This document shows positions 5,949 to 40,007 of a stretch of 64,000 nucleotides of DNA, in pieces (position 1 is the first letter of the stretch; every line of letters starts with the position of its first letter). The notes beneath the pieces were generated by a model. The model searched no databases. It saw only the letters and a program-made list of their open reading frames with translations, and was not told where the DNA came from. The stretch comes from Terriglobus saanensis SP1PR4 (GTDB taxonomy: Bacteria > Acidobacteriota > Terriglobia > Terriglobales > Acidobacteriaceae): assembly GCF_000179915.2 (NCBI RefSeq), contig NC_014963.1, positions 806,001 to 870,000 on the forward strand, in the 5' to 3' direction. The translations under genes were made by a program, and so were the position numbers.

Positions 5949-6149
5949 GTGCCCCATTCTTCGCGGCTTTATCGCGAAGGGTGGGTTCGCGCGGAGCGCA
6001 CAAACCTGATTTGTCCGAAAGCCGAAACCGGTGCCCCATGTCCCGCTTTTGGGACATGGGTTATGCGCAAAGCGCATCTATCGCTCGAAGAGCGACCCCT
6101 AAGGAGATTCTCAAAGAGCAGATCCCGCCGCTACGCTGCGGGATGACAA
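5949..6149 (-). repeat. Composite intergenic repeat cluster (two two-hairpin units plus one REP-like unit)
   Basis: Reading the minus strand, the cluster has a REP-like unit (6149-6119: TTGTCATCCCGCAGCG to GGGATCTG), then a two-hairpin unit (6078-6030) with stem CCCATGTCCC / GGGACATGGG, then a second two-hairpin unit (6006-5949) with stem CTTCGCG / CGCGAAG closed by CCCA / TGGG. Both units end in GGGGCAC. A further small hairpin (TCGCTC GAAG AGCGA) lies at 6080-6096. The cluster fills the space between the convergent dsbD-alpha-like gene and gltX. Related units are at 15641, 24492, 33973, 35494 and 39038. Confidence 0.85.
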
Positions 6150-15632: not shown

Positions 15633-15640
15633 TGTTCTTC

Positions 15641-15804
15641 TTTGTCATCCCGTAGCGGAGGAGAGGGATCTGATTTTACTCAGAAACAGATCCCTCTCCT
15701 CCGCTACGGGATGACAAAAGGAAAAGGCTTCCTTAGAAATCCGGTTTGTGCGCTCTGCGCGACCCCACCCTTTGCGCGATGAAGCTGCGCAAAGAATGGG
15801 GCAC
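15641..15804. repeat. Inverted REP pair plus two-hairpin unit
   Basis: Two REP-like units face each other as a perfect 32-bp inverted repeat: 15641-15672 (TTTGTCATCCCGTAGCGGAG onward) and 15687-15718, with a 14-base spacer. A two-hairpin unit follows at 15743-15804 on the plus strand. Its stem reads CTTTGCGC / GCGCAAAG, where other copies have CTTTCGCG / CGCGAAAG, and it ends GGGGCAC. The cluster lies between the convergent XRE and S15-type genes. Confidence 0.88.
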
Positions 15805-24434: not shown

Positions 24435-24491
24435 GCCTTATGGTCGTGGGGTTGTGGGGTGGTGTCAACCTTTGTCATCCATAACTTTCAC

Positions 24492-24606
24492 TTTGTCATC
24501 CCGTAGCGGAGCGGAGGGATCTGCTGTTTTATCTTCCTGTCCGATCTGTTTGTGCGCTCTGCGCGACCCCATTCTTTCGCGATGAAGCCGCGAAAGAATG
24601 GGGCAC
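24492..24606 (+). repeat. REP-like unit plus two-hairpin unit with perfect 15-bp stem
   Basis: A REP-like unit (24492-24523, TTTGTCATCCCGTAGCGGAG onward) is followed 24 bases later by a two-hairpin unit (24548-24606). The second hairpin pairs 24567-24581 with 24589-24603 without a mismatch (CCCCATTCTTTCGCG and complement, loop ATGAAGC). The unit ends GGGGCAC seven bases before the stop of fabG. Confidence 0.87.
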
Positions 24607-32405: not shown

Positions 32406-33266
32406 ATGATGGTCGGAAAGATCTGGAGTCGCAGGCGGATGCTCGCTGTGGGAGCCGCGGGCGCGGGGTGGGGATGGATGCGGGGAACATCGTTGTTCGC
32501 TCAGGAGAAGGCCGCCTGCACATTGTCTCCGGAGCTGGAGGTCGGGCCTTATTACGTCAACTATGAGTTGATGCGCAAAGACATTCGCGAAGATCGCGCG
32601 GGCGTGCCGCTACATTTGAAGATTGTGTTGATGAACTCAAAGACCTGCCTGCCCTTGAAAGATGCGGCGGTGGATGTGTGGCACTGCGATGCCATGGGGA
32701 TCTATTCCGGCTATACGAAGAACAACCCGGACTCGATGGGTGGCCCCGGTGGGATGCTGCCACCGCCTCCTCCAAAGGGTGCAGCGGGCGGCCCGCATTA
32801 TGGGCCTCCGGGTATGAAGCAGACGGATCAGGAGACGTTTCTACGCGGCGTGCAGATCACCGGGAAGGACGGATCGGCGGAGTTCCTGACGATCTATCCC
32901 GGCTGGTATGTTTCGCGCGATATCCATGTTCACCTGGAGGTACATATGGGAGGGAAGGCCGGAGAGAAGAAGTACGCAGGCGGGCATGTCTGCCACATCG
33001 GACAGATCGCGTTTCCGGATGACCTGAGCGATGCCGTGGCAAAATTGGAGCCTTACGCGCAGCACAAAAAAGAACGGACGCGGCTTGAGGACGATCACGT
33101 CTTTCATGACGATCTTGCGAATGTGATGCTGCGTTTGCAGCAGATCGATTCTTCTTCGATGACGAAGGGATTTACGGGGGAGATTACGTTCTGGGTGGAT
33201 CCCGACGCGATGCCGAAGCAGGAGGGGCCGGGTTCCGGTGGAATGCCGGAGCAGTGGGTGGATTAG
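32406..33266 (+). CDS. Exported intradiol ring-cleavage dioxygenase-like protein
   Basis: A 286-residue protein with a Tat-like signal (WSRRRMLAVGAAGAGWGWMR). The fold is that of intradiol catechol dioxygenases: ELEVGPYYVNYELMRKDIRE, PLKDAAVDVWHCDAMGIYSG and YPGWYVSRDIHVHLEVH. The Fe(III) ligands are probably Tyr100, Tyr168 (or 164), His174 and His176. A Gly/Pro-rich insertion (about 108-140, with a run of prolines) sits between the first and second ligand. The start is set at 32406 because GGCAGG precedes it by five bases; ATG 32379 is an alternative. Exported relatives are common in soil bacteria and their substrates are uncertain. It is divergent from the ECF sigma gene. Confidence 0.88.
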   Translation: MMVGKIWSRRRMLAVGAAGAGWGWMRGTSLFAQEKAACTLSPELEVGPYYVNYELMRKDIREDRAGVPLHLKIVLMNSKTCLPLKDAAVDVWHCDAMGIYSGYTKNNPDSMGGPGGMLPPPPPKGAAGGPHYGPPGMKQTDQETFLRGVQITGKDGSAEFLTIYPGWYVSRDIHVHLEVHMGGKAGEKKYAGGHVCHIGQIAFPDDLSDAVAKLEPYAQHKKERTRLEDDHVFHDDLANVMLRLQQIDSSSMTKGFTGEITFWVDPDAMPKQEGPGSGGMPEQWVD

Positions 33267-33368
33267 TGGTTGCTGCGATGACAAAAGTTTTTTGCGGCGC
33301 AACGAAGTTCCGTTACGGGATGGTTTGGTTGGCTTGAGAGGTAGAGGCGGCTTATCCTGCTGGTACGC

Positions 33369-33911
33369 ATGAAAACTGTAAAAGCGATTTATCCCGGGAC
33401 GTTTGATCCACCGACGAATGGGCACTTGGACCTGATTGAGCGCGGTGCCAAGATTGTGGATCACCTTGTGGTGGCGATCCTGCGGAACTCGAGCAAGGCC
33501 GAGCCGCTGTTTACGACGGCGGAACGCGCGGCGATGCTGACCGAGTGTGTGAAGCCTTTCGGGAATGTCTCCGTGGCGACGTTCGATGGTCTGCTGGTGG
33601 ACTTCGCGAAGCAGGAGGGCGCTCGGGCTTTGCTGCGCGGCATTCGCGCCATTTCGGATTACGAGTACGAGTTCCAGATGGCGATGATGAATCGCAAGCT
33701 CGCGCCGGAGCTGGAAACGATCTTCATGATGCCCGCGGAGAAGTACACGTATGTGTCTTCACGGTTGATCAAGGGTGTTTATCGGCTTGGCGGCGATGTG
33801 GCGGAGTTGATTCCGCCGTTGGTGCTGGAACGGTTGAAACATAAGCGTGGCGCGGTGGCGCCTGAGGGGACTGGGGTGGATCTCGTAGAAGGAAGTCCGG
33901 GGGACGATTAG
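33369..33911 (+). CDS. coaD: Phosphopantetheine adenylyltransferase
   Basis: Fourth step of coenzyme A synthesis, making dephospho-CoA from phosphopantetheine and ATP. At 180 residues it is slightly longer than usual because of a 15-20 residue C-terminal tail. The nucleotidyltransferase motif is AIYPGTFDPPTNGHLDLIER. Further conserved blocks are RALLRGIRAISDYEYEFQMA and TIFMMPAEKYTYVSSRLIKG. It lies 102 bases after the dioxygenase gene, where a degenerate REP-like sequence (GATGACAAAAG and CGTTACGGGATGG, about 33278-33322) is seen. It is followed by a two-hairpin repeat. Confidence 0.96.
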   Translation: MKTVKAIYPGTFDPPTNGHLDLIERGAKIVDHLVVAILRNSSKAEPLFTTAERAAMLTECVKPFGNVSVATFDGLLVDFAKQEGARALLRGIRAISDYEYEFQMAMMNRKLAPELETIFMMPAEKYTYVSSRLIKGVYRLGGDVAELIPPLVLERLKHKRGAVAPEGTGVDLVEGSPGDD

Positions 33912-33972
33912 GACCGAGTTTTGAATAACCGAACCGCTCCTGAATATTTCCTCATCCCGGATTCAACGGGGC

Positions 33973-34020
33973 GTTAGCATCCCACCCGCACATCGCAAAA
34001 GCGCGATGTACGGGGCACCC
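33973..34020 (+). repeat. Two-hairpin repeat unit between coaD and P450
   Basis: ACATCGC (33990-33996) pairs with GCGATGT (34003-34009), extended across one mismatch by CCCG (33985-33988) and CGGG (34011-34014). The element ends CGGGGCACCC. The first small hairpin seen in other copies is degraded here. The closing pairs CCCG/CGGG replace CCCA/TGGG of other copies. Confidence 0.75.
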
Positions 34021-34071
34021 GGGGTTTTAGCTTTCCTCAAGGCTCCTTAGGAATAGTCTTGAAGAGCCCCC

Positions 34072-35472
34072 ATGACAACTCCGCCTCCGATTCCCGACGT
34101 AACGGTTTCCACCGATGAGGCTGTGGCATTTCCAGGATTGAAGCGGGGGCTTTTTTTTTATCTCTTCAAGCCGTGGGTGAAGCTGGGACATCCGATTCTG
34201 CTCTTCGAGCACTTGCAACAGACGTTTGGAAACGTGGCGCAGTACCGCTTTCTGGGAACGCCCATTGTCTACCTGAACGATCCGGAGTATATCCGCGAAG
34301 TGCTGATCAACCAGGCTTCTGCGTTTGTAAAAGAGCGCACCGTCAAGCGGATGAAAGTTCTGCTGGGCGAAGGTCTGATTACCTCGGACGATCCGATTCA
34401 CATCCGCTCACGGCGCATTGCAGCGCCGGCGTTTCATCGGCAACGGATCGCGGCTTATGGAGATCAGATCGTTGCCATCGCTGCGAGTCAACGGGATCGG
34501 TGGCATGAAGGGCAGGTGCTGGATATCGGTGCGGCGTCGATGGAATTGTCGCTGGAGATCGTGGCAAGGACGCTTTTCGACACTGAGGTGACGACGGAGA
34601 TCCGCTCGATCAACGATGAAGTGAACACAATCATGGGTCTCTACAACTTTATCGTGGCGTTTCCGCAGTTGGAGAAGTTCGTCAATTTCCCGATTCCGGG
34701 AGTGATCAAGTTTCGGCGATCGAAGGCGCGGTTGGATGCGGTGGTGGGGCGACTGATTCGAGAGCATCGCGAAGCGTCGCTGCGAGGAGAAGAGGATAAG
34801 GGCGACCTGCTCTCGATGCTGCTTTCGTCGCGAGACGAGGAAGGCGACCACTCTGGTCTTTCGGATGAACAGGTGCGCGACGAAGTTCTGACGATCTTTC
34901 TGGCTGGATACGAGACCGTAGCGAATGCTCTGACGTGGACTTGGTATCTGCTGAGTCAGAACCCCGAGGTCGAGGCGCGCCTGCACGCCGAACTGGATGA
35001 AGTTCTGGGAGGGCGACTGCCCGTGTTGGCGGACTATGCTGCCTTGAAGTACACGGAGATGGTCTTTGCCGAGTCGATGCGTCTCTATCCCCCGGCCTGG
35101 GCGATGGGGAGGATGGCCACGCGGCCTGTGCGCGTGGGGCCGTATGAGATTCCCGAGGGCGCGCATGTGTTCTTCAGCCAGTACATGATGCATCGCGATC
35201 CACGATGGTATCCGGAGCCGCTGAAGTTCGATCCTGAGCGGTTTTCCGCCGAAAACAAGGCAGGGCGTCCGAAGTTTGCCTATTTCCCGTTTGGTGGCGG
35301 GGGAAGGCAGTGTATCGGCGAGGGGTTTGCGTGGATGGAGGGCGTTTTTTCCATTGCGACGGTGGCGCAGCGATGGCGCTTTGAGTTTCTGGGGACACGT
35401 GAGCCTGAGGTTCAGGCGAAGATTACGCTGCGGCCTGAGGGGGCAGTGCGGATGCGGGTGGTGGGTCGGTGA
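34072..35472 (+). CDS. Cytochrome P450
   Basis: A 466-residue haem monooxygenase of the CYP4/CYP102-like soluble type. The I-helix oxygen motif is AGYETVA (A278 onward), the K-helix ExxR is ESMR (E334, R337), and the haem loop is FPFGGGGRQCIGEGFAWMEG with the axial ligand Cys414. PERF-type sequence appears as FDPERFSAENK. No membrane anchor or fused reductase is present, so it must use separate redox partners, none of which is nearby. Substrates of this group are often fatty acids or terpenoids, but the sequence does not say. It is flanked by repeats on both sides. Confidence 0.95.
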   Translation: MTTPPPIPDVTVSTDEAVAFPGLKRGLFFYLFKPWVKLGHPILLFEHLQQTFGNVAQYRFLGTPIVYLNDPEYIREVLINQASAFVKERTVKRMKVLLGEGLITSDDPIHIRSRRIAAPAFHRQRIAAYGDQIVAIAASQRDRWHEGQVLDIGAASMELSLEIVARTLFDTEVTTEIRSINDEVNTIMGLYNFIVAFPQLEKFVNFPIPGVIKFRRSKARLDAVVGRLIREHREASLRGEEDKGDLLSMLLSSRDEEGDHSGLSDEQVRDEVLTIFLAGYETVANALTWTWYLLSQNPEVEARLHAELDEVLGGRLPVLADYAALKYTEMVFAESMRLYPPAWAMGRMATRPVRVGPYEIPEGAHVFFSQYMMHRDPRWYPEPLKFDPERFSAENKAGRPKFAYFPFGGGGRQCIGEGFAWMEGVFSIATVAQRWRFEFLGTREPEVQAKITLRPEGAVRMRVVGR

Positions 35473-35493
35473 CTTTGGTTTTGTTTTCGGGAA

Positions 35494-35678
35494 GGATGCG
35501 CTTTACGCATAACCCATGTCCCAGGCGGGACATGGGGCACCCGGATTTCGGGGTTCCCGCTCTTTTTGTCATCCCGTAGCGAAAGCGTAGGGATCTGCTT
35601 TCCCCCGGACAGATCCGGTTTGTGCGCTCTGCGCGCACCCCACCCTTCGCCGATAAAGCTGGCGAAAGAATGGGGCAC
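35494..35678 (+). repeat. Composite repeat: two-hairpin, REP-like, two-hairpin
   Basis: On the plus strand: a two-hairpin unit (35494-35544) with stem CCCATGTCCC / GGGACATGGG and ending GGGGCACCCGG; a REP-like unit (35565-35597, TTGTCATCCCGTAGCG to GGGATCTG); and a second two-hairpin unit (35617-35678) with stem CTTCGCC / GGCGAAAG, ending GGGGCAC. These modules occur in the same set as at 5949-6149. They fill the gap between the P450 and aminotransferase genes. Confidence 0.87.
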
Positions 35679-35751
35679 GATGGGAGCCACGGTGACGGTT
35701 CTGGAAGGTTCGGCTTTTCAGGGGTGGGGGAAATCTGAAAGACTGTAGGAC

Positions 35752-36951
35752 ATGAGCACTGTTGCGGAAGCGAAAACGATGTTAACGGAGCGGATCGGAA
35801 GAATCGAAGTATCCGCGACCATGGCGATCACGGCTGAGGCGTTGCGTTTGAAGGCGCAGGGTATGGATCTGGCGGACTTTGGCGCGGGCGAGCCACACTT
35901 CCAAACGCCGGCCCACATCAAGAAAGCCGCCATCGACGCCATTGAGAGCGGATTTACGCGCTATACCGCAGTCGCCGGTATCCCAGAGGTCCGCAAGGCC
36001 GTCGTAGAGCGGCACGCGAAAGATTTTGGAACGCAGTATGCCGTGGACGAGTGCGTCTTTACCACCGGTGGCAAGCTGGCGCTCTTCAATGCGATCCAGG
36101 TGCTGGTGGACCACGGTGACGAAGTGATTCTGCCGGTCCCCTATTGGGTCAGCTTCAAAGACATCATCCAATACGCGGGCGGCGTGCCGGTGTTTGTGCG
36201 CGGGCGCGAAGAGGAGAACTTCCGCATCACGGCGAAGATGATTGAAGGCGCGATCACGGAAAAGACGAAGGCGATTGTGTTGAATACGCCTTCGAACCCC
36301 TCCGGCGCGGTCGTCTCTCCTGGGGACCTGGAGGCGATCGTTCGGCTGGCACATAAGAAGGGCGTGTATGTGCTGCTGGATGAGTGCTACATCTACCTGA
36401 ACTACACCGGCAACCTGATCTCTGGTGGATCGTTCCTGGACTGCAAGGAGCACGTCGTCGTGCTTGGGTCGCTGTCGAAGACCTACGCGATGACCGGCTG
36501 GCGCGCGGGCTATGCGCTGGGACCGAAGCCGATCATTGCCGCGATGAGCAAGCTGCAGTCGCAGAGCACGTCGAACACCGCGAGCATGGTGCAGCGCGCT
36601 TCCGTCGCAGCGCTGACCGAGAGTCAGGATTGCGTCTTCGAGATGCGGGACGGCTATCTAAAGCTGCGCGACAGGATTCTTGCGGGCCTGAAGGAGATTC
36701 CGGGCATCACGTGCACGGTGCCTGAAGGCGCGTTCTACGTGTATCCGAATGTAAGCGCCTACTTCGGCAAGGGCGGCATCCACTCTGCTGCCGATGTCGC
36801 GGCCAAGCTGTTGAGCGAAGCACACGTTGTGGTGGTGCCGGGCGAGGCGTTCGGTACAGACGAACATATCCGTTTCAGCTATGCAGTGAGTGAGGACGTC
36901 GTGGACAAGGGAATCGAACGTTTGAAGAAGTTCTTCGGCGGACTCGCCTAA
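35752..36951 (+). CDS. Aspartate aminotransferase-type class I aminotransferase
   Basis: A 399-residue PLP enzyme of aminotransferase subgroup I-gamma (AspB-like). The N-terminus includes LADFGAGEPHFQTPAHIKKA, the substrate loop NTPSNPSGAVVSPGDL, the PLP contacts DECYIYLNYTG, and the Schiff-base lysine in LGSLSKTYAMTGWRAGY (K243). The C-terminal arginine is in DEHIRFSYAVSED. It probably interconverts aspartate and oxaloacetate; some members also accept prephenate. Its stop codon overlaps the start of the phosphohexomutase (TAATG at 36949), so the aminotransferase, mutase and HAD genes form one coupled operon. Confidence 0.92.
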   Translation: MSTVAEAKTMLTERIGRIEVSATMAITAEALRLKAQGMDLADFGAGEPHFQTPAHIKKAAIDAIESGFTRYTAVAGIPEVRKAVVERHAKDFGTQYAVDECVFTTGGKLALFNAIQVLVDHGDEVILPVPYWVSFKDIIQYAGGVPVFVRGREEENFRITAKMIEGAITEKTKAIVLNTPSNPSGAVVSPGDLEAIVRLAHKKGVYVLLDECYIYLNYTGNLISGGSFLDCKEHVVVLGSLSKTYAMTGWRAGYALGPKPIIAAMSKLQSQSTSNTASMVQRASVAALTESQDCVFEMRDGYLKLRDRILAGLKEIPGITCTVPEGAFYVYPNVSAYFGKGGIHSAADVAAKLLSEAHVVVVPGEAFGTDEHIRFSYAVSEDVVDKGIERLKKFFGGLA

Positions 36952-38384
36952 TGGCCCAGGTCGTCAAGTTTGGAACGGACGGATGGCGCGGCATCATTGC
37001 AGATGACTTTACGTTTGCCAATGTCCGCGTAGCTGCGGCTGCGGTTGCGAATTACGTGGTGGACGCGGGTGATGCGCCGAAGGGCGTCTGCATCGGCTGG
37101 GACACACGGTTTGCGTCAGAGGCGTTTGCAAAGGTGACGGCGGAGGTATTGTCTGCCGCGGGCATCAATGTGTTTCTGGCGGATCGCGTAACGGCGACGC
37201 CAGCTCTTTCGTTTGCCGTGCTTGAACGCGGCGCGGCAGGTGGCGTGATGATTACGTCAAGCCACAATCCCGCGCAGTGGAATGGCTTCAAGTACAAAGG
37301 GCCGTTTGGCGGTTCGGCTACGGCATCGATGGTGACGGGGATTGAATCGTTTCTTGGCAAAGATCTGCCAGCAGCGATTGTGCCGGGAACCATCGAGCGG
37401 GTTAATTTTCTGCCTACGTATCTCGATGCGGTGAAGAAGTTTGCCGATCTGAAGCGGATCAAAGAGTCCGGTCTTCGCTTCCTGATCGACAGCATGTACG
37501 GTGCTGGATCCGGCCTGTTGAAGAGCATCTTCGACGAGGCCGGTGTGCCTTGCGTCGAGATTCGCAGCGAGCGGAATCCGTTATTTCCTGGGATTAATCC
37601 TGAACCGATCCTGCCGCACATTGCGGAGGCGCAGAAGGCTGTCGTTGCCAACAAGTGCGACGCGGGTGTGATTACGGACGGCGATGCGGATCGTATCGGC
37701 GCGGTCGATGAGCATGGCAACGTCGTGACGGCGCACCAGATCCTGGCGCTGCTGACGTGGTGGCTGCTGGAGCGCAAGGGATGGGGCGGCGAAGTGACGC
37801 GCGCCTTCAACACGACCAAAATGGTCGATCGCATTGCGGCGAAGTACGGACGGAAGCTCCATGAGCACGGGATCGGCTTCAAGTATGTCGTGGACTTGAT
37901 GCTGGCGAATGACATCCTGATTGGCGGCGAGGAGTCGGGCGGCGTCGGCATCAGCAAACATCTGCCGGAGCGCGATGGCGTCTTCAACGCGCTGATGATC
38001 GCGAACGTGATGGCGGAAGAGAAGAAGACACTCGGCCAGCTCGTGGCGATGCTGCAGGCGGAGTTTGGTGAGCATCAGTATGGGCGCATCGATATGCACA
38101 TCGACGACACGCTGAAAAAATCCGCAATTGCGCGTGCGTCGAGCGGTCTGACCGAGATGGCAGGCATGCGTGTTCTCCGCACGGAGAACATGGACGGCAT
38201 CAAGTTTTTTCTGGATAACCCCGAGGCTGCGTCTAAGAAGAACGCCGCAGAGACTTGGCTGCTGTTGCGCGCGAGCGGAACGGAGCCTTTGCTTCGCGTT
38301 TATTCAGAGTCATGCTCGCACGAGAGTGTGGAGAAGATTCTGAAGGCGGCGGAGCAGTTTGTGTTGGAAGGGAAGTCTGCGTGA
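36951..38384 (+). CDS. Phosphoglucomutase/phosphomannomutase family protein
   Basis: A 477-residue alpha-D-phosphohexomutase. Domain 1 begins VVKFGTDGWRGIIADDFTF and has the phosphoserine loop MITSSHNPAQWNGFKYKG (Ser104). The metal loop is TDGDADRIGAVDEHG, the sugar loop GGEESGGVGISKHLPERDGV, and the phosphate-binding loop LLRASGTEPLLRVYSES. The sugar specificity (glucose, mannose or glucosamine) cannot be decided by eye; the opening FGTDGWRG is shared with glucosamine mutases, but the length and SSHNP favour a PGM/PMM type. It overlaps the aminotransferase upstream and the HAD gene downstream (GTGA). Confidence 0.92.
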   Translation: MAQVVKFGTDGWRGIIADDFTFANVRVAAAAVANYVVDAGDAPKGVCIGWDTRFASEAFAKVTAEVLSAAGINVFLADRVTATPALSFAVLERGAAGGVMITSSHNPAQWNGFKYKGPFGGSATASMVTGIESFLGKDLPAAIVPGTIERVNFLPTYLDAVKKFADLKRIKESGLRFLIDSMYGAGSGLLKSIFDEAGVPCVEIRSERNPLFPGINPEPILPHIAEAQKAVVANKCDAGVITDGDADRIGAVDEHGNVVTAHQILALLTWWLLERKGWGGEVTRAFNTTKMVDRIAAKYGRKLHEHGIGFKYVVDLMLANDILIGGEESGGVGISKHLPERDGVFNALMIANVMAEEKKTLGQLVAMLQAEFGEHQYGRIDMHIDDTLKKSAIARASSGLTEMAGMRVLRTENMDGIKFFLDNPEAASKKNAAETWLLLRASGTEPLLRVYSESCSHESVEKILKAAEQFVLEGKSA

Positions 38385-39034
38385 TCGAAGTCGAGGTGGG
38401 CGCCTTCCTGTTCGACATGGACGGGGTGCTGGTGAGTTCGATCGGATCGGTGCGGCGAAGCTGGCGGAAGTGGGCGAAGATGTACGGGCTTCCCGATTCG
38501 GAGACCTTCGAAATCCCCCACGGCCAGAGGGCGCGCGAGATCATCCAGGGTCTGATTCCGGAGAAAGACGTGGATGAGGGACTTCGCGTCATCGAAGAGA
38601 TCGAGATGGCCGACACCGACGACCTGATCATTCTGCCGGGTGTTCGCGCTCTGCTGGAGAGTCTGCCGAAGGAGCGTTGGGCGATTGTGACCTCTGCTAC
38701 GAACCGGCTGGTGATTGCGCGTCTTGAAGTAGCGGGTTTGCCGATCCCTACGCGGCTGGTCAGCGCGGATTCGGTGGAGCGGGGGAAGCCTGCTCCGGAT
38801 CCTTATCTGGCGGGGGCGAAGCTGCTTGGGATTTCTCCAGGGGATTGCCTGGTGGTGGAGGATGCTCCCTCTGGGCTGCAGTCTGGCAAGGCTGCCGGGG
38901 CGAAGCTCCTTGGGGTTTTGGGGACACATGCTTTAGAAGATCTGGGCGATGCGATGTGGGTGGTGGAGTCGATGGAATCGGTGCGGGTAGAGGTTGGGGA
39001 GCGGTTGCGGGTGAGCCTGGATGTTGTGCGGTAG
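38381..39034 (+). CDS. HAD-superfamily sugar-phosphatase-like hydrolase
   Basis: A 217-residue HAD hydrolase, subfamily IA. Motif I is AFLFDMDGVLVSSIGSVRRS (catalytic Asp pair), motif II AIVTSATNRL, motif III KPAPDPYLAGAKLLG, and motif IV VVEDAPSGLQSGKAAGA. This is the pattern of the YfbT/YniC 2-deoxyglucose-6-phosphatase or beta-phosphoglucomutase group. The start is GTG at 38381, overlapping the mutase stop as GTGA, so the two proteins are made together and probably act on the same sugar-phosphate pool. A repeat cluster follows its stop. Confidence 0.9.
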   Translation: MIEVEVGAFLFDMDGVLVSSIGSVRRSWRKWAKMYGLPDSETFEIPHGQRAREIIQGLIPEKDVDEGLRVIEEIEMADTDDLIILPGVRALLESLPKERWAIVTSATNRLVIARLEVAGLPIPTRLVSADSVERGKPAPDPYLAGAKLLGISPGDCLVVEDAPSGLQSGKAAGAKLLGVLGTHALEDLGDAMWVVESMESVRVEVGERLRVSLDVVR

Positions 39035-39037
39035 ATG

Positions 39038-39263
39038 GATCGCTTCGCGATCACCCACACATCGCAAAGAGCGCGATGTATGGGGCACCCGGCACCCGGT
39101 CTTCGTTCTTCCGATTCTCTGTCTTCCCGTAGTCCCCCTTTTTTGTCATCCCGTAGCGTTAGCGAAGGGATCTGCTTTTCTTCTCTGAATTTCCTGACAA
39201 ATCAGGTTTGTGCGCTCTGCGCGACCCCACCCTTTCGCAAAAAGCCGCGAAAGAATGGGGCAC
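39038..39263 (+). repeat. Composite repeat: two-hairpin, REP-like, two-hairpin
   Basis: A two-hairpin unit (39038-39092) has a first stem GATCGC / GCGATC and a second stem ACATCGC / GCGATGT closed by CCCA / TGGG; it ends GGGGCACCCGG. A REP-like unit (39141-39174) and a second two-hairpin unit (39205-39263, stem CTTTCGC / GCGAAAG, ending GGGGCAC) follow. The cluster separates the convergent HAD and kdsB genes. Confidence 0.87.
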
Positions 39264-39266
39264 GGA

Positions 39267-40007
39267 TCAGGCGAGCAGGGTGGCTACGCGCTGGAGGTCC
39301 TCTTCGGTGTCGACGCCAATGGTGTCGTGGTCTACGGTTTCCACATACAGGGCGATGTTGTTTTCCAAAAGGCGAAGCTGTTCGAGGCGTTCGATCTGTT
39401 CCAGGGTCGAGGGCGGCAGGGTAGCGAAGCGTTTGAGAGTTGCCGCGCGGTAGGCATAGAGGCCGATGTGCTTCCAGTACTGGACGTCGCCGGAGTTCTC
39501 GCGGTCGTAGGGGATGGCAGCGCGGGAGAAGTAGAGCGCGCGGCCGTCCGGGGCGGTCACTACCTTTATAGCATTCGGGTTGGTGATGTTCTCCGGCGTG
39601 CAGAGCACGCAGATGGTCGTGGCTTGCACATGATCGCCGAGGTCGAAGGGGCGAAGGAGGGCTTCGATGTGGTGTTCCGTCAGCGTAGGTTCATCTCCCT
39701 GGATGTTCACATAGATGTCCGCAGGGTGTGTCTTTTCAAGAGCTTCGGCGACGGCGTGCATGCGGTCGGTGCCGCTGGCCAGCTCGCGCGAGGTCATCTG
39801 GTACTGCCATCCGCGCTGCTGACAGAGGTCGGCGACTTCTGCGGAATCCACGGCGACGATGACTCCGTCGAGCTGCGGGACGCGCAGAGCGGCCTCGACA
39901 ACCCAGGCGAGGAGAGGCTTTCCGGCGATTTCGCGGAGGACTTTGCGGGGAAGGCGTGTGGATTCGAGGCGGGCCGGAATGACGGCGAGGATGCGGTTGG
40001 GTCGCAA
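39267..40007 (-). CDS. kdsB: 3-deoxy-manno-octulosonate cytidylyltransferase
   Basis: Activates Kdo as CMP-Kdo for lipid A decoration. It has 246 residues. The nucleotide-binding opening is ILAVIPARLESTRLPRKVLR, followed by VIVAVDSAEVADLC, RELASGTDRMHAVAEAL, DIYVNIQGDEPTL and YWKHIGLYAYRAATLKRFA. The end GVDTEEDLQRVATL is the usual KdsB tail. It lies alone on the minus strand, convergent with the HAD gene across a repeat cluster, and 167 bases from the divergent tRNA-Met. Together with kdsD at 3819-4796 it indicates Kdo in the LPS. Confidence 0.96.
   Translation of the reverse strand: MRPNRILAVIPARLESTRLPRKVLREIAGKPLLAWVVEAALRVPQLDGVIVAVDSAEVADLCQQRGWQYQMTSRELASGTDRMHAVAEALEKTHPADIYVNIQGDEPTLTEHHIEALLRPFDLGDHVQATTICVLCTPENITNPNAIKVVTAPDGRALYFSRAAIPYDRENSGDVQYWKHIGLYAYRAATLKRFATLPPSTLEQIERLEQLRLLENNIALYVETVDHDTIGVDTEEDLQRVATLLA

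Follow-up and report, generated by a model that had tools for sequence, protein, structure and literature searches.

The window (i.e., the whole 64,000-nucleotide stretch of DNA that was analysed, bases 806001–870000 of the single 5,095,226 bp contig of Terriglobus saanensis SP1PR4) carries nine copies of a dispersed repeat. An earlier note, made from the letters alone, had described all of them as keeping one frame: a small hairpin, ACCC, a second hairpin and GGGGCAC. The nine stretches are indeed present where the note had placed them, the first two on the minus strand; a second palindromic repeat that shares their intergenic clusters is listed last:

5949..6006, minus strand: class F copy, found by the class F RNA model and by the frame scan
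6030..6078, minus strand: class D1 copy (ATGTCCC stem), found by the frame scan; contig positions 812031-812060 are in the list of D1-type cores
15743..15804, plus strand: class F copy, stem one base longer on each arm (CTTTGCGC/GCGCAAAG), found by the class F RNA model
24548..24606, plus strand: class F copy, base fully paired (CCCATTCTTTCGCG/CGCGAAAGAATGGGG), found by the RNA model and the scan
33973..34020, plus strand: class D2 copy, fourth pair G-C, without a recognisable first hairpin, found by the frame scan
35494..35544, plus strand: class D1 copy, first hairpin GGATGCGCTTTACGCATA, then ACCCATGTCCC-AGGC-GGGACATGGGGCACCCGG
35617..35678, plus strand: class F copy, bulged stem (CTTCGCC/GGCGAAAG), found by RNA model R1 (E 1.6e-16)
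39038..39092, plus strand: class D2 copy (ACATCGC/GCGATGT), found by the frame scan and the exact D2 core search
39205..39263, plus strand: class F copy, in one intergenic cluster with the D2 copy and downstream of it, found by the RNA model and the scan
15640-15677, 15684-15718 (reverse), 24491-24528, 35564-35601, 39141-39178: second palindromic repeat, TTTGTCATCCCGTAGCG...GGGATCTGC

Three classes can be distinguished by their stems: class F (n = 5: 5949, 15743, 24548, 35617 and 39205), whose first hairpin reads GTTTGTGCGC..., class D1 (n = 2: 6030 and 35494), with the ATGTCCC stem, and class D2 (n = 2: 33973 and 39038), with the ACATCGC stem. The complete frame is seen in eight of the nine, 33973–34020 being (by eye) the one without a first hairpin. 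Eight copies, and nothing else in the window, were also recovered by scanning for CCC, a stem and GGGGCAC in this order; the one missed, 35617–35678, has a bulged stem. In 30 windows simulated with a first-order Markov model, four matches arose in total (mean: 0.13 per window) against the eight observed, which rules out chance palindromes. The strings GGGGCAC and GTGCCCC occur 11 times in the window, and nine of these occurrences belong to repeat elements. The second palindromic repeat, dispersed through the same intergenic clusters, contains GTAG.

Copies across the genome and at the ends of Y1 transposase genes

A covariance model and a whole-genome search had been proposed in the earlier note as a check. 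Built from 19 own-genome copies of class F outside the window, such a model matched at least 150 copies in the genome (all with E ≤ 6.6e-9), a lower bound in that 150 of 4882 first-look candidates were scored, all 150 of which matched. Exact cores number 25 for the D1 type, two of them being the ends of a transposase gene at 465 kb, and 27 for D2; the F and D1 counts both take in the own ends of transposase genes. The string TGGGGCACCCGG occurs 43 times (its reversed control: 0), including two sites without a frame hairpin (L017 and L037). At 23 of 43 D sites, an F copy follows head-to-tail on the same strand within 150 bp. Among the 97 copies whose surroundings were analysed, seven lie inside a predicted gene. 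At three of the TGGGGCACCCGG matches (L009, L012 and L036), a GGTCGCTCTTCGAGCGA hairpin is joined straight to the D2 3' end, as if the middle had been lost by deletion between short repeats.

The genome has two Y1_Tnp matches, at 399 kb and 465 kb, and both genes are flanked by inverted, outward-facing frame hairpins. Those of the 399 kb gene are of class F on both sides and were independently recovered by the class F model, even though GGGCCCC replaces GGGGCAC at one end; the gene itself is frameshifted, its HUH motif and its tyrosine motif lying in different frames. The 465 kb gene has a D1-type stem and is intact. Its product scores above the cut-off for NF047646 (REP-associated tyrosine transposase), matches TnpA_REP 4er8 with an E-value of 4.7e-11 and, over its 163-residue translation, has Y1_Tnp as the only Pfam domain; it has no second genomic match in T. 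saanensis at E 1e-10. The outer stem CCCATGTCC/GGACATGGG is common to the D1 copy 35494..35544 and to the ends of this gene, and the two differ at an inner pair: the 5' arm of the gene ends carries ATGTCCG and their 3' arm CGGACAT, and in 22 of the 23 other listed D1-type copies the 3' arm has GGGACAT, so that the inner-stem difference is a paired one.

An intact local enzyme is thus absent for two of the three classes, the class F transposase being frameshifted and none having been found for D2. The exact D2 core is present in seven of 300 genomes of the family, five of them in the genus Terriglobus. One congener, G240 (L267), has a truncated homologue of the 465 kb gene with a D2-type hairpin immediately upstream, as well as an exact D2 core next to a 27-residue transposase-like match, which taken alone is weak (E 6e-4). 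Because D2-type hairpins adjoin a transposase remnant in this congener, D2 probably lost its enzyme in T. saanensis.

Homologues of the 465 kb protein are found in 162 of 200 genomes of its family (E ≤ 1e-10), and in a phylum-wide draw of 297 genomes, all 25 that match at E ≤ 1e-15 belong to the same family. We examined 90 loci, i.e., the own gene and 89 from relatives (30 returned by the family search, own gene included, and 60 picked from its list, mostly best first). The motif PEHVH occurs in 77 of these homologues and Y[IML]HRNP in 75. An outward frame hairpin (CCC-stem-loop-stem'-GGGGCAC) accompanies 70 of the 90 loci, on both sides in 42 and on one side in 28, with none in 20. Within 300 bp of the loci, 132 hairpins face outward vs. 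26 inward, and shuffled flanks would be expected to give 0.1; at 30 control loci, taken from stronger Y1_Tnp matches, a frame hairpin was found once.

The stem follows the transposase: between the two ends of a single transposase, stem agreement is 0.94 (31 of 42 identical) vs. 0.43 between different transposases, and stem identity rises with protein identity, from 0.35–0.43 below 65% to 0.65 at 65–70%, 0.89 at 70–80% and 0.97 above. Over 70 loci, stem and transposase similarity are correlated (Mantel r 0.358, reached in 0 of 2000 permutations). Four stem patterns were then set against 23 genomes picked for their known ends (92 cells). Counting the transposases' own ends (which, in G157, are the only two matches), matches occur in all 14 cognate cells, in which a nearest transposase end has the stem in question, and no match occurs in 69 of the 78 non-cognate cells. 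Copies are present in the other nine, one of which (G002) has the hairpin in a transposase locus, not as the nearest end.

Paired divergence, decay and strand

The beside-gene hairpins comprise 85 distinct ends, of which 82 are long enough for a pairing test. Over stem positions 4–10, their pairing is 0.911 vs. 0.519 with the arms swapped (maximum over 1000 swaps: 0.591), a fair control because the hairpin finder itself requires pairing. In 17 transposase-end hairpins of equal length, five of ten pairs change on both sides, with 18 both-sides cells vs. 4.9 in shuffles. The covariation score of these 17 ends was reached in none of 500 shuffles and four of five measures exceeded all 500, figures that do not amount to a probability because the 17 sequences are related; the fifth measure, the number of further pair types, was nothing out of the ordinary (243 of 500). 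A C.A mismatch at pair 5 recurs in 28 of the 85 end hairpins. The wobble asymmetry of these hairpins (top-strand C.A vs. G.T: 36 to 5) was considered as an indicator of the folding strand and dropped, as 28 of the 36 C.A are the pair-5 mismatch, leaving 8 to 5.

Among the class F copies, 58 of 97 have the consensus stem; eight misparsed copies, six of which belong to the CCATTCTT type, are left out of the variant counts. Of 15 single-copy variants, 11 are changed in one arm, three are changed in both arms and paired, and one is otherwise broken, whereas of the five variants found in more than one copy, four have changes in both arms and remain paired, one of the four with a wobble. Gains or losses of one base made symmetrically in the two arms are also among the variants. 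An RNAalifold run on class F, in which 0 of 14 pairs showed compensation, was discarded: its alignment was gapped in the stem, and direct parses show the paired variants. The pattern of one-arm and paired changes fits a filter acting at propagation and followed by decay. Such a source-filter model does not predict the three paired single-copy variants unless their siblings are unsampled; these variants could be unsampled subfamilies or products of arm-to-arm correction.

Comparison with the sister species (G283) indicates that copies can decay once they have landed. The orthologue of 35494–35678 is present there with weakened hairpins, the folding energy going from −20.6 in T. saanensis to −9.2 kcal/mol in the sister for D1 and from −18.1 to −8.2 kcal/mol for F, whose orthologue has an 11-base deletion. 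At one place the sister species has an inverted D2 doublet that T. saanensis lacks, and another D2 locus is kept in both. The earlier note had read the retained pairing as a sign of selection or copying acting on structure. Pairing is indeed kept across stems, and a copying system that depends on the fold, in single-stranded DNA, would explain it best; selection for the fold of each copy is not supported, given the much weaker hairpins of the sister orthologue and the 11 of 15 single-copy F variants altered in one arm only.

The strand of the copies tracks GC skew. With the elements masked, GGGGCAC lies on the locally G-rich strand in 68 of 77 F copies and 19 of 20 D copies (87 of 97 in total), and when copies less than 30 kb apart are grouped, 36 of 43 groups agree with the skew, with two ties. 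Genes, stranded by a codon-trained gene caller, do not follow it (330 of 692); with the genes on both sides running against the skew, the copies still go with it in 29 of 31 cases. In other genera, with a different stem, copies agree with the skew in 16 of 18, 3 of 3 and 14 of 20 cases, the last (G125) being the weakest test (p 0.115). Since the leading strand is usually the G-rich one, the strand of the elements would correspond to the lagging-strand template, as in IS200/IS605. The correlation suggests replication-coupled insertion into single strands, but a strand-asymmetric, i.e., skewed, target preference could give the same result. Copies are also concentrated in the chromosome half centred on contig position 0 (F: 116 of 150; TGGGGCACCCGG sites: 41 of 43), the centre being chosen to maximise the count; of 200 uniform simulations on thinned sets, none reached this concentration. 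The second palindromic repeat of the window, the one with GTAG, leans with GC skew as well (20 of 28). Along the sampled chromosome stretches, the skew itself switches sign many times in a way that gene strand does not explain, which suggests many inversions.

Origin of the repeats and comparison with known systems

In our reading, to which we give a probability of about 0.8, the repeats are REP-like non-autonomous elements: loose copies, single or in tandem, of the hairpins at the ends of Y1 (HUH) REP-associated tyrosine transposases, a family common in Acidobacteriaceae. A constant frame, with CCC at the base and GGGGCAC outermost, would be combined with a stem peculiar to each transposase lineage; the enzyme would recognise its own class as a folded single strand and spread copies of it, probably on DNA that is single-stranded at the replication fork, and this would determine on which strand the copies lie. 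Stem changes would mostly survive in spreading lineages if they affect both arms, and copies would decay after landing. Catalysis, mobility that is still active, a single-stranded intermediate and coupling to the fork are presumed parts of this scheme.

The location of the copies might at first sight speak for an element that works as RNA or at mRNA ends (as a terminator, a 3'-end stabiliser or a small RNA), with the fold of each copy selected in the transcript: 90 of 97 lie outside predicted genes, the nearest gene end is a stop codon for 70 of these 90 (at a median distance of 14 nt), and 41 of the 90 stand between convergent genes vs. 80 of 315 among intergenic gaps of at least 80 bp. Yet strand goes with GC skew and not with gene direction, copies in tandem settings sharing the gene strand in only 13 of 42 cases; no T run comes right after the stem (CACCCGG intervenes in D); and intrinsic terminators are unsupported at the five elements scanned in 33000–40000, none of which coincides with a called terminator-like site. 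Nor is a known RNA family involved, as two tRNAs are all that reaches the Rfam gathering score in the window. Together with the weaker hairpins of the sister orthologue and a stem class that tracks the transposase, this makes such a role unlikely.

Complementarity might instead be passive, arising when the polymerase switches template between the arms (quasi-palindrome correction) without any enzyme reading the fold. The symmetric one-base indels and the three paired single-copy variants of class F are of the expected kind, as is the paired change between the D1 copies and the ends of the 465 kb gene; but 11 of the 15 single-copy variants changed in one arm only, and the process leaves unexplained the constant frame at transposase ends, the match of stems with transposases and of classes with genomes, and the dispersal itself, so that we consider it quite unlikely. 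Finally, host chromosome sites scattered for architecture (nucleoid or topoisomerase binding), with an incidental or ancestral link to the transposase, would agree with the enrichment in one chromosome half (given its count-maximising centre) and with the tracking of skew by copy strand. Stem classes are replaced between related genomes, however, and the copies decay in the one orthologous pair examined closely, which leaves this explanation very unlikely.

If the repeats are loose transposase ends, their closest published relatives are the tyrosine transposase genes flanked by inverted repeats (TIRtrons, or TIRYT) of Di Nocera 2013 (PMC3733652). According to the available text of that paper, several TIRYT share the motif GGGGWSAS, some are dispersed as single, paired or clustered copies, and the T. 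saanensis gene tsa 392 belongs with other Acidobacteria genes to the most sharply defined group. The earlier note knew of no named family with this form, which has to be corrected in part, since GGGGWSAS terminal repeats around tyrosine transposases, one of them in T. saanensis, were already in print; in the accessible portions of the searched literature, the term TIRYT is used in PMC3733652 and PMC6006769 only. The likeness lies in the inverted repeats that flank both T. saanensis Y1 genes and, on both sides, 42 of the 90 loci. The present GGGGCAC fits GGGG-SAS, without the W base, and a constant frame with covarying, transposase-following stems and a strand bias, as found here, is not described in the available text of PMC3733652.

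REP sequences and their TnpA_REP/RAYT enzymes offer the second comparison. In the available sections of Quentin 2018 (PMC6006769) and Corneloup 2021 (PMC8266576), REP are short palindromes, largely intergenic and often around an HUH-Y1 transposase gene; the latter source adds that TnpA_REP co-evolves with REP in other groups and that the E. coli enzyme contacts a stem mismatch, to which the recurrent C.A at pair 5 is a parallel. Membership in the REP-associated tyrosine transposase family (NF047646, 4er8) is shared with the GTAG-tagged REP/RAYT, but no GTAG or GT[AG]G tag adjoins the main hairpin in the nine window copies (by eye). The transposase motifs, mostly PEHVH and Y[IML]HRNP, are not in the motif table of PMC6006769, as far as this table is accessible. 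The same source, in its available part, reports that no REP-like sequences were found near TnpA_REP subclass 2.1 genes, and the C-terminal HTH or DnaA-C-like domain of that subclass has no Pfam match in the 465 kb protein. CGTC-tagged REP, which have no transposase association, are likewise unlike the present elements, with their GGGGCAC tag and their transposases. REPIN doublets (PMC3116915, from its available text) resemble the inverted D2 doublet of the sister species, but in T. saanensis an F copy stands head-to-tail behind many of the D sites (23 of 43).

With IS200/IS605, which transpose as single strands on the lagging-strand template (PMC6006769, in its available part), the elements have HUH-Y1 enzymes and end hairpins in common. 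The Y-x-x-x-Q motif given in that text is lacking in the 465 kb gene, 75 of the 90 homologues having Y[IML]HRNP, and, unlike IS200/IS605, the 465 kb gene is single in its genome at E 1e-10 and fits the REP-associated model.

Altogether, three features are apparently new with respect to these systems: a stem code that diversifies together with the transposase, enzyme motifs that the published table lacks, and a copy strand that tracks GC skew. The dissemination of REP is called poorly understood in Corneloup 2021 (PMC8266576), as far as its available text goes, and a strand bias that goes with GC skew leads to the testable prediction that REP-like elements insert during replication. With 85 distinct end hairpins beside transposases and a fixed frame, the residues behind specificity should be mappable by comparison. 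Going further, we tentatively raise the possibility, in our view less probable than its opposite, that Acidobacteriaceae hold a lock-and-key library: dozens of transposases whose catalytic core reads one frame and whose stems differ, with copies serving as strand-resolved footprints of past replication direction that survive inversions. If true, such a library would record both sides of the code side by side, and the insertion strand would be set by fork direction.

Among the stronger Y1_Tnp matches at L047–L071, in other genomes of the family, many are of a different class, which has two hairpins per side (for example AGGGCCGAAGGCCCG then TAGCCCAG...CTGGGT), some of them apparently GTAG-tagged. 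One genome (G054) has 33 Y1_Tnp matches, several with nearly equal scores, a set that looks like a recently active IS200-type element. In G125 (G125:C1:838941-839187), four AGGTCTC-stem hairpins stand head-to-tail with a spacing of 71–73 bases.
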